From an uncultured Clostridia bacterium (GTDB lineage: Bacteria > Bacillota > Clostridia > Oscillospirales > Ruminococcaceae), in NCBI GenBank assembly GCA_947623585.1, contig CANQHA010000005.1, positions 1-64,000 of the forward strand: a stretch of DNA of 64,000 bases, written 5' to 3'. The notes under the pieces are model-generated. The model did not search any database. It was given only the letters and a program-made list of their open reading frames with translations, and was not told where the DNA came from. This document shows, one piece after another, positions 35,668-38,014 of the stretch (its first letter is position 1; the number at the start of each line of letters is the position of its first letter). The translations under genes were made by a program, and so were the position numbers.

Positions 35668-35686
35668 AATCCGCGGAGGGATTTTT

Positions 35687-36643
35687 ATGGACTGGAAAGA
35701 ACTGAAAATATACACGCGGCACGAGAGCGTCGAGGACCTGTCGGCGGCGCTTATTTCCGCGGGAATAACAGGGCTTGTGATAAACGACCCCGAGGATATA
35801 AAGGCGTTCGCCGCCGAGAAAAGCTCGAGCTGGGATTACATCGACGAGGAGCTGCTTAAAACTGCGGCCTCGGGCGAGGCGTTCGTCACGGTTTATATCT
35901 CCGAGGACGACGAGGGCGCCGCGATGACCGAGGCGGTCTCAGAGGCGCTTTCAAGGCTCGAGGGGCTCGGAACGCACTGCCGCGTTGAAAGCGGCAGCAT
36001 TCGCGAGGAGGACTGGGCGAACGAGTGGAAAAAGTTTTTCAAGCCGCAGCGCATCGGCGAGAAGATAATAATAAAGCCCTCGTGGGAGAACGTTTCGGAT
36101 TCGGAGCAAAGAAAAATAATAGAGCTCGACCCCGAAAACAGCTTCGGGACCGGAAGACATTATACCACTCAGCTTTGCATCGAGCTGCTCGAAAAATATA
36201 TTCATGAGGGCGACAGCGTTGCCGATTTCGGCTGCGGCAGCGGAATAATCTTTATTTCGGCGATGGCGCTCGGAGCAGGTTCGGCGGTCGGGGTGGATAT
36301 TTCGGAGGACGCCGTGAAAATTTCTCGGAGAAACGCCGCCAAAAACGGCATAGCCGACGAAAAGCTCGAGCTTTATTGCGGAGACGTTATCAGCGACGAA
36401 AAGCTGCGCAAAAAGGTGTGTAAAGGCTATGACCTTGTCGCAGCTAACATCGTGGCGGACGTGCTTCTCGGAATGAAGGACGTTTTTGCCGAGGTGCTTA
36501 AACCCGCGGGAACGCTCGTTTTATCGGGAATTATAGACGATCGGCTCGACGAAGTTATCACTGCTGTAAAGCAGAGTGGCTTTACACTCTTAGAGCAGCT
36601 TCACCGAGACATCTGGAACGCCGCGGCGTTTGTTAAGAATTAA
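35687..36643 (+). CDS. prmA: ribosomal protein L11 methyltransferase
   Basis: A 318-aa SAM-dependent methyltransferase. Start at ATG 35687 behind GGAGGG. An N-terminal substrate-binding domain (about 1-110) is followed by the catalytic domain: ENSFGTGRHYTTQ, SAM loop DFGCGSGIIFISAMALGA, GVDISEDAV and VAANIVADVLL. PrmA normally reads AFGTGxHPTT and DxGxGSG, so the R-H-Y variant is slightly unusual, but the domain order and length fit. Methylates L11 in the known enzyme; the substrate here is inferred. Confidence 0.88.
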   Translation: MDWKELKIYTRHESVEDLSAALISAGITGLVINDPEDIKAFAAEKSSSWDYIDEELLKTAASGEAFVTVYISEDDEGAAMTEAVSEALSRLEGLGTHCRVESGSIREEDWANEWKKFFKPQRIGEKIIIKPSWENVSDSEQRKIIELDPENSFGTGRHYTTQLCIELLEKYIHEGDSVADFGCGSGIIFISAMALGAGSAVGVDISEDAVKISRRNAAKNGIADEKLELYCGDVISDEKLRKKVCKGYDLVAANIVADVLLGMKDVFAEVLKPAGTLVLSGIIDDRLDEVITAVKQSGFTLLEQLHRDIWNAAAFVKN

Positions 36644-36690: not shown

Positions 36691-36757
36691 TGTCGAAAAT
36701 TCTGAATTTATTTTTCGACAAATTTCGACATTCTTGCGGGCGTCGGTGTAATATAAT
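36691..36757 (+). promoter_or_regulatory. Spo0A-box promoter upstream of the Spo0A-domain gene
   Basis: Three exact copies of the Spo0A box TGTCGAA occur here: 36691-36697 on the plus strand, and 36714-36720 and 36724-36730 as TTCGACA on the other strand, the last two one helical turn apart (10 bp). A -10 box TATAAT lies at 36752-36757. A -35-like TCGACA (36725-36730) overlaps the third box with 21-bp spacing, as in Spo0A-activated sigma-A promoters such as spoIIG, where an over-long spacer is compensated by Spo0A. Confidence 0.75.
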
Positions 36758-36821
36758 TTCAGGGCGGGGTTTTCCCCGAAAGTGAAATGACCGCAAACGC
36801 GGAAAGGAGAAATATTACATA

Positions 36822-37208
36822 ATGTTAGAAGACGCCAACCGTTTCAGACAAATAACCACCTCGCTTTTTGAGCTTGGGGTGAAGCCGCACTTCAAGGGCT
36901 TTGAATACCTCGTCTGCGCGCTGTCGCTCGTTATCGACGAGCCGCAATATCTTCAGAACGTCACAAAGCGCCTCTATCCCGAGGTCGCAAGGCTGTGCGG
37001 CGAGGGGGTCAAGCCGAGCTGCGTCGAACGCTCGATGCGTATCGCCATCGAAAACTGCTTTCTTTACGGCGACAAAGACTTTCAGTACGCCTATTTCGGA
37101 GCCTGCGTCAACCCCGAAAAGGGCAAAACCACCAACGCGGAATTCATCGCCTGCGTGGCGCAGAAGATTCGCCTCTGTGAAACCGCGAAAAAAAGCGCCG
37201 AGGTCTGA
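36822..37208 (+). CDS. stand-alone Spo0A C-terminal DNA-binding domain protein
   Basis: A 128-aa protein that aligns along its whole length with the effector domain of the sporulation regulator Spo0A: FELGVKPHFKGFEYLVCALS, LYPEVARLCGEGVKPSCVERS (recognition region) and NPEKGKTTNAEFIACVAQK. The receiver domain with its phosphorylated Asp is absent, so it cannot respond to the phosphorelay itself. It is preceded by three Spo0A boxes and a promoter with long spacer. It could compete with or replace Spo0A at target sites. The Shine-Dalgarno AAGGAG is about 13 bases from the ATG. Confidence 0.88.
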   Translation: MLEDANRFRQITTSLFELGVKPHFKGFEYLVCALSLVIDEPQYLQNVTKRLYPEVARLCGEGVKPSCVERSMRIAIENCFLYGDKDFQYAYFGACVNPEKGKTTNAEFIACVAQKIRLCETAKKSAEV

Positions 37209-37270
37209 TTTTTTCGCTTTGGCGAGCGGCGCTGCTCGAAAAAATAATAAAACCGAAAGGCGGTGCTTTT

Positions 37271-38014
37271 ATGGACATGGAAAAAATAGGACAATTCGCC
37301 GAGATGCTGAGACGCTGCAAAAACGCCGTGTTTTTCGGCGGAGCAGGGGTCTCGACCGAGAGCGGAGTTAAGGACTATCGCAGCGAGGACGGGCTTTACA
37401 ACACCGTCAGGCAGTACGGCGTGCCGCCCGAGGAGATTCTGAGCCGCACGTTTTTCTTCTCGAAGCCCGAGGTCTTTTACGACTTTTACTACAAATATTT
37501 TTTGCTGAGCACCGCAAGGCCCAACCCTGCGCATATCGCCCTCGCTGAGCTTGAAAGGCGCGGAAAGCTGAGCGCCGTCATCACTCAGAACATCGACGGG
37601 CTTCATCAGGCCGCCGGAAGCAAAAAGGTCTTTGAGCTTCACGGAACTATCGCGAAAAATCGCTGCTGCAAGTGCGGGGCGGATTTTCCGACCGAAAAAA
37701 TCAAGGCGCTCGAGGGCAAAGTCCCTCGCTGCGAGCGCTGCGGCGGGCTTGTCAAGCCCGAGGTCGTTCTTTATGAGGAGCCGCTCGACGAGCGAACCGT
37801 CAACGGCGCGGTCAGGGCGATAGCCTCGGCGGACCTTATGATAATCGGCGGAACTTCGCTCGCGGTATACCCCGCCGCGGGGCTTTTGAGGTATTTCGGG
37901 GGAGAGAGCATCGTTCTCATAAACCGCGGAGAAACAGGCTATGACAGCCGCGCCGACCTTGTTTTCAGAGACAGGATAGGCGAGGTCATGTCGGAAGCGA
38001 TGAAGCTGATATAA
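37271..38014 (+). CDS. NAD-dependent protein deacylase, Sir2 family
   Basis: A 247-aa cytoplasmic sirtuin: NAD loop GGAGVSTESGVKDYRS (the usual GIPDFRS is GVKDYRS here), TQNIDGLHQAAGS with the catalytic region ELHGT, and a four-Cys zinc site (CCKCG and CERCGG). Removes acyl groups from lysine using NAD. Start ATG 37271, ribosome binding site AGGCGGTG. Followed by a terminator. Confidence 0.9.
   Translation: MDMEKIGQFAEMLRRCKNAVFFGGAGVSTESGVKDYRSEDGLYNTVRQYGVPPEEILSRTFFFSKPEVFYDFYYKYFLLSTARPNPAHIALAELERRGKLSAVITQNIDGLHQAAGSKKVFELHGTIAKNRCCKCGADFPTEKIKALEGKVPRCERCGGLVKPEVVLYEEPLDERTVNGAVRAIASADLMIIGGTSLAVYPAAGLLRYFGGESIVLINRGETGYDSRADLVFRDRIGEVMSEAMKLI

Follow-up and report, generated by a model that had tools for sequence, protein, structure and literature searches.

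A stand-alone Spo0A DNA-binding domain gene behind a spoIIG-type promoter in a Ruminococcaceae genome and in its genus

Introduction

Sporulation is governed through Spo0A, its hub, and control over this regulator is thought to act through phosphorylation of the receiver, which normally blocks DNA binding until it is phosphorylated. A gene that encodes only the DNA-binding domain of this regulator, behind a promoter carrying several Spo0A (0A) boxes, raises the question of whether it belongs to the circuit that Spo0A governs and in which direction it would act. Such a gene (the window gene) lies in the 64,000-nucleotide stretch analyzed here, called the window, from an uncultured gut Clostridia bacterium of the Ruminococcaceae (contig CANQHA010000005.1, positions 1 to 64,000). 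A chromosomal class of receiver-less Spo0A proteins under Spo0A-type promoters would add a phosphorylation-blind loop to the sporulation hub. In gut phages, the available part of PMC10294663 describes truncated Spo0A in 29 virome sequences, all with the effector domain only, and the available part of PMC6907783 reports Spo0A_C to be enriched in gut mobile elements. Receiver-less Spo0A is already published for phages, and what is new is a family on chromosomes behind promoters of the Spo0A type; the literature searched, which covered few subscription journals, yielded no account of short Spo0A genes in that setting.

The receiver-less protein

The features of the locus are as follows.

35684..36643, + strand: prmA, upstream neighbor; the gene after prmA differs in the relatives read (ORF list, family search)
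36691..36697, + strand: 0A box 1, exact TGTCGAA (motif scan)
36714..36720, - strand: 0A box 2, exact TGTCGAA (TTCGACA on the + strand), in tandem with box 3 and lying 10 bp before it (motif scan)
36724..36730, - strand: 0A box 3, exact TGTCGAA, holding the -35-like TCGACA at 36725-36730 (motif scan)
36752..36757, + strand: -10 element TATAAT, 21 bp past box 3 (read from the sequence)
36804..36809, + strand: AAGGAG, probable ribosome-binding site (read by eye)
36822..37208, + strand: receiver-less Spo0A_C protein, 128 aa (ORF list, Pfam, AlphaFold2, PDB comparison)
37271..38014, + strand: SIR2-family gene, 62 bp downstream, a neighbor outside the regulator (ORF list, family search)

The ORF at 36822-37208 encodes an entire Spo0A effector domain and no receiver, as the preliminary description had proposed. 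The Pfam Spo0A_C profile is covered over its whole length (1-104 of 104, 101.9 bits against a cut-off of 25), and because it is the sole Pfam match at E<=1, the protein has no receiver domain and therefore no phosphorylation site. The AlphaFold2 model has a mean pLDDT of 88.5, and its PDB matches at E<=0.001 comprise seven chains, each from 1fc3 or 1lq1. With a full-length match above the Pfam cut-off and the same fold, the protein is a member of the Spo0A_C family; it is not a Spo0A master regulator, since it lacks the receiver with its phosphorylation site and scores 94.2 bits with the full Spo0A model TIGR02875, below the cut-off of 200 bits.

The recognition helix retains E213, R214, and R217, which we take to be the base-contacting residues of Spo0A, and the protein also keeps G227, F236, and A257. 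Relative to B. subtilis, H218 is replaced by I, R211 by C, T208 by K, and R226 by Y, and two extra residues directly precede the recognition helix, a feature unique among the nine short proteins aligned; because of this insertion and these substitutions, the affinity or specificity of the protein for 0A boxes may be shifted. In the genus, the 54 receiver-less domain rows keep E213 in 52, R214 in 44, R217 in 52, and F236 in 50, with weaker retention of G227 (22/54), H218 (15/54), and A257 (33/54), so the presumed DNA-contact residues are mostly retained; in the full-length Spo0A rows E213, R214, R217, H218, G227, and F236 are each present in 13/13 and A257 in 8/13. The functional roles of H218, G227, F236, and A257 are presumed here from B. 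subtilis work. At S231 and S233 the full-length Spo0A of the genus also departs from B. subtilis.

The promoter of the window gene

Three exact TGTCGAA boxes lie in the 178-bp gap upstream of the window gene, boxes 2 and 3 in the same orientation with starts 10 bp apart and box 1 on the opposite strand. The motif scan bears out the earlier statement that two of three exact boxes lie one helical turn apart (the offset is 10 bp), and the box described as overlapping a -35-like hexamer with a 21-bp spacer reads as TCGACA at 36725-36730, 21 bp, and TATAAT at 36752-36757. This is the layout of a spoIIG-type promoter, with a 0A box over the -35 position and a long spacer to the -10 element. At least two boxes were found in a fraction of 0.00065 of 20,000 dinucleotide shuffles of the gap and three in none, and three exact boxes within 40 bp occurred in 0 of 300 window shuffles. 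Chance is thereby ruled out for the cluster; single exact boxes in the window stay at chance level (13 versus a mean of 10.2 in shuffles). The pattern TTCGACA-N18..22-TATAAT has a single match in the 2.07-Mb own assembly, at the window gene, and none in the reversed control. Given the consensus TATAAT, the promoter could also be active independently of Spo0A~P.

Sporulation genes of the source genome

Spo0A_C is found in three places in the own assembly (2,073,093 bases in 43 contigs), namely in a full-length gene, in a second stand-alone copy, and in the window gene. The full-length Spo0A, the presence of which had been named as a check, is 263 aa long with Response_reg and Spo0A_C; no exact 0A box was found within 250 bp upstream of its gene. 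A sporulation programme is likely, since ORFs read as spoIIGA, sigE, and sigG (identities by our assignment) are consecutive and a sigK-like gene lies elsewhere; the best sigma-E match, at 339.5 bits, is slightly below the curated cut-off of 348.6. The tandem TTCGACA-NNN-TTCGACA, with up to one mismatch, occurs at four places versus one in the control. The single exact occurrence is the one at the window gene; the others belong to the second stand-alone copy, to the interior of an open frame, and to the region ahead of an ORF, where TATTTT follows 21 bp beyond the boxes. At the second stand-alone copy the sequence runs TTCGACA-NNN-TTCGACG-N21-TATAAT and then reaches an ATG that lies downstream of the called start, so the copy is probably shorter than the ORF call.

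The own spoIIGA promoter reads ATCGACA-N21-TAAAAT. In a strict scan with spacers of 20-22 bp, 23 of 30 spoIIGA loci matched, all with 21 bp, as did 12 of 232 control ORFs, where the spacer was 21 bp in 5 cases; with two box mismatches allowed, a count that has no separate control, 29/29 spoIIGA loci of the genus matched, 21 bp being best in each. A tandem box is present at 2/29 of these sites. According to the available part of PMC12090719, B. subtilis spoIIG belongs to the Spo0A regulon and depends on sigma-A. Because the spoIIGA promoters of the genus share the 21-bp spacing, homology gives good support to a predicted activation of the short gene by Spo0A~P.

Short genes across the genus

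The preliminary description had suggested a search in relatives, and receiver-less copies are present in 25 of 31 genus genomes, or 26 counting one weak match in G008; none was found in G011, G012, G021, G023, or G026, and full-length spo0A was not seen in G020, a genome that is 76% complete. Among the short genes 41/50 have an exact box in the 200 bp upstream, versus 14/245 mechanically chosen neighbor ORFs. A scan of spacers from 17 to 25 bp at the 50 short genes gave 21 bp in 29, 20 bp in 2, and no good site in 19. When three mismatches in all were allowed with spacers of 20 or 21 bp, 39 of 47 short genes had a box, spacer, and -10 element (37 of them with 21 bp) and 8 had none; copies within one genome are related and hence not independent counts, and the -10 is poor at L075, which is among the 39. 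At 33 of the 39 sites a second box (up to two mismatches) lies exactly 10 bp upstream, other offsets giving 0-7. The earlier claim of a receiver-less Spo0A effector under a spoIIG-type promoter is thus supported, full-length Spo0A being present and the geometry recurring at the own spoIIGA, at 29/29 spoIIGA loci of the genus, and at 39/47 short genes. What the short genes carry looks like the local Spo0A-activated promoter in a stronger form.

Across the 31 genomes, TTCGACA-N18..22-TATAAT has 47 exact matches versus 30 in the reversed control, and by our matching of coordinates 20 of the 47 are at short genes. In eleven genomes (G001, G002, G006, G009, G013, G019, G024, G025, G027, G029, and G030) there are 10-17 tandem 0A boxes each, versus 0-4 in the reversed-pattern control, which rules out tandem boxes as private to short genes; in these genomes a tandem-box regulon far larger than that of the window's genome is possible. 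A further protein architecture was seen at L064 (40-816 and 13705-14481), where a 258-aa ORF with two tandem Spo0A_C domains and no receiver is present at both contig ends in opposite directions.

Copies, selection, and descent

In some genomes of the genus the gene and its promoter are present in 2-4 dispersed copies. The unit alignable between copies is about 0.5-0.6 kb, consisting of the gene and 56-221 bp upstream, with unrelated flanks, and in 7 of 8 pairs examined it ends between 34 bp before and 15 bp after the stop codon. In the eighth pair (G016) the alignable span is 1.2 kb and includes a degenerate Spo0A_C-like gene, and in G020 three copies have 0.8-0.9 kb in common with more repeats around them. 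No terminal inverted repeats or target duplications were obvious by eye at the borders in the 8 pairs. Degenerate Spo0A_C-like genes were also seen directly upstream of a short Spo0A_C gene on the same strand in other genomes (L039:4467-4922, L036:2737-3189, and L038:4173-4598); the three scanned score 17.6-21.5 bits, below the Pfam cut-off, and the product might be a non-binding partner.

The dispersed short-gene copies are under purifying selection: of 29 pairs, 20 from the same genome and 9 from different genomes, 28 have dN/dS of 0.01-0.20 (the window gene is outside this set), and the 20 within-genome pairs have dN/dS of 0.01-0.15, except one recent pair at 0.38, with dS of 0.1-1.07. In G016, four copies have 96-99% identical residues at dS of 0.35-0.50. 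Recent duplication is ruled out as the origin of the window copy, as there is no DNA alignment between the two short genes of its genome. In the short-gene tree the genus falls into a group of 34 rows, which is an open fork, and another of 19, and few deep forks are resolved. The window gene clusters there with a single copy from G015 and another from G022 (98/84), at 47 and 49% identity, and since it also has no alignable sister it is an old, lineage-specific copy.

Neighbors and viral relatives

Judged on its two immediate neighbors, prmA and the SIR2 gene, the window gene does not look phage- or prophage-borne. Comparison with an empty site is uninformative, as the gene after prmA varies among the 15 prmA loci listed (the own locus and 14 relatives, one at a contig end). 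No + strand terminator-like site is listed in 37209-37270, between the Spo0A_C and SIR2 genes, so the SIR2 gene is possibly co-transcribed by read-through from the Spo0A-type promoter.

In viral loci, 38 of 43 Spo0A_C ORFs are short. Of these 38, a few of which start at a contig end so that upstream DNA is absent, 3 show an exact 0A box in the 250 bp considered. The combination of box, spacer, and -10 element occurs in weak form at 2 of the 38, of which one has a 21-bp spacer and two mismatches, and in exact form at none. Leaving deep ancestry apart, phage origin is ruled out as the main reading, as the viral short ORFs mostly lack the promoter. An unannotated stretch encoding Spo0A_C was also seen on a 215-kb Subdoligranulum plasmid record (OY725880.1, 196679-197020; L357).

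Proposed role and alternatives

The window gene is probably a Spo0A~P-induced gene for a phosphorylation-blind 0A-box binder, a judgment that applies to this core and not to the sign of the effect. As a gene for a stand-alone Spo0A DNA-binding domain, it would belong to the early part of the Spo0A~P regulon. Spo0A~P would bind the two tandem boxes and reach over the 21-bp spacer to contact RNA polymerase with sigma-A, and since the boxes and the -10 element match consensus, the gene would be switched on at low Spo0A~P. Because the receiver, normally inhibitory until phosphorylated, is missing, the product is expected to bind 0A boxes unphosphorylated, both in front of its own gene and in other promoters that have them. 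The preliminary description had likewise expected binding to the same boxes without phosphorylation, and this is consistent with the kept contact residues and with the available part of PMC3485338, where the DNA-binding domain of Spo0A, when isolated, binds legitimate targets and 0A boxes without phosphorylation, but the two-residue insertion before the recognition helix calls for caution. It is plausible that the short protein feeds back on the decision to sporulate, and such feedback becomes probable because its promoter resembles in design the ones activated by Spo0A. The product may compete with Spo0A~P and so, with some uncertainty, act as a brake that would slow or damp the entry into sporulation and also repress its own gene. 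The brake is somewhat favored over an amplifier, because the presumed DNA-contact residues are kept, the dimerizing receiver is missing, and there has been drift at some of the presumed activation residues, a leaning that rests on B. subtilis genetics; S231/S233 and F236 are uninformative here, since F236 is kept in 50/54 and S231/S233 are altered in full-length Spo0A too.

The amplifier has the same core with the opposite sign: the stand-alone domain would activate spoIIG-type promoters, its own included, without phosphorylation and lock in sporulation. Promoter geometry identical at its own gene and at spoIIGA, retention of F236 (50/54 rows) and A257 (33/54), and the binding of the isolated domain without phosphorylation in the available part of PMC3485338 all agree with it. 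An always-active product behind a consensus -10, in up to four close copies per genome, would however be expected to fire constantly, and G227 (22/54) and H218 (15/54), whose roles are presumed, are poorly kept compared with 13/13 full-length rows for both, so that this sign is a serious but doubtful alternative. That the boxes serve the short protein alone, with no role for Spo0A~P, would accord with a pattern found once in the own genome and at short genes in 20 of its 47 genus matches (reversed control 30); the shared 21-bp spacing of spoIIGA promoters and the many tandem boxes elsewhere in 11 genomes (10-17 each versus 0-4) speak against such pure autoregulation, which we regard as unlikely.

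A further alternative is a vestige or cargo of phages or other mobile elements, a truncated Spo0A that would serve the element and would have been inserted here by chance. The gut phage proteins and the enrichment of Spo0A_C in gut mobile elements (available parts of PMC10294663 and PMC6907783), the 38/43 short viral ORFs, and the dispersed copies in several genomes would suit it. The neighbors prmA and SIR2, the exact box at 3/38 viral versus 41/50 genus short genes, the exact box-spacer-(-10) arrangement in 0/38 viral ORFs, and the purifying selection on short genes all make it improbable. That the boxes are accidental or the gene decayed would accord with single boxes at chance level in the window, but is scarcely credible beside the cluster test, the genus-wide conservation, and the dN/dS of the relatives (the window gene itself being outside that set).

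Extended to the genus, the preferred reading of a Spo0A~P-induced, phosphorylation-blind binder leads to a speculative and rather unlikely proposal: a distributed feedback circuit in which a promoter-plus-gene unit of about 0.5-0.6 kb (a phosphorylation-blind Spo0A domain behind a low-threshold Spo0A~P promoter) would be copied to many chromosomal places, with several near-identical copies kept under selection in some species and copy number setting the developmental threshold.

Comparison with known systems

With phage truncated Spo0A (available part of PMC10294663; phrog_24603) the window protein shares the restriction to the effector domain, but the window gene lies between prmA and SIR2 and has a Spo0A-type promoter, and an exact 0A box is found at 41/50 genus short genes (within 200 bp) versus 3/38 viral short ORFs (within 250 bp). 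Spo0A itself (TIGR02875; C-terminal domain 1lq1, 1fc3) has in common with the window protein the whole DNA-binding domain, the fold, and E213/R214/R217, while the window protein has no receiver or phosphorylation site, reaches 94.2 of 200 bits, and carries two more residues before the recognition helix. The spoIIG (spoIIGA-sigE) promoter, in the same genome and across the genus, shares with the short genes a 0A box, a 21-bp spacer, and a sigma-A-like -10, to which the short genes add a tandem box (33/39 versus 2/29 sites) and, mostly, a better -10.
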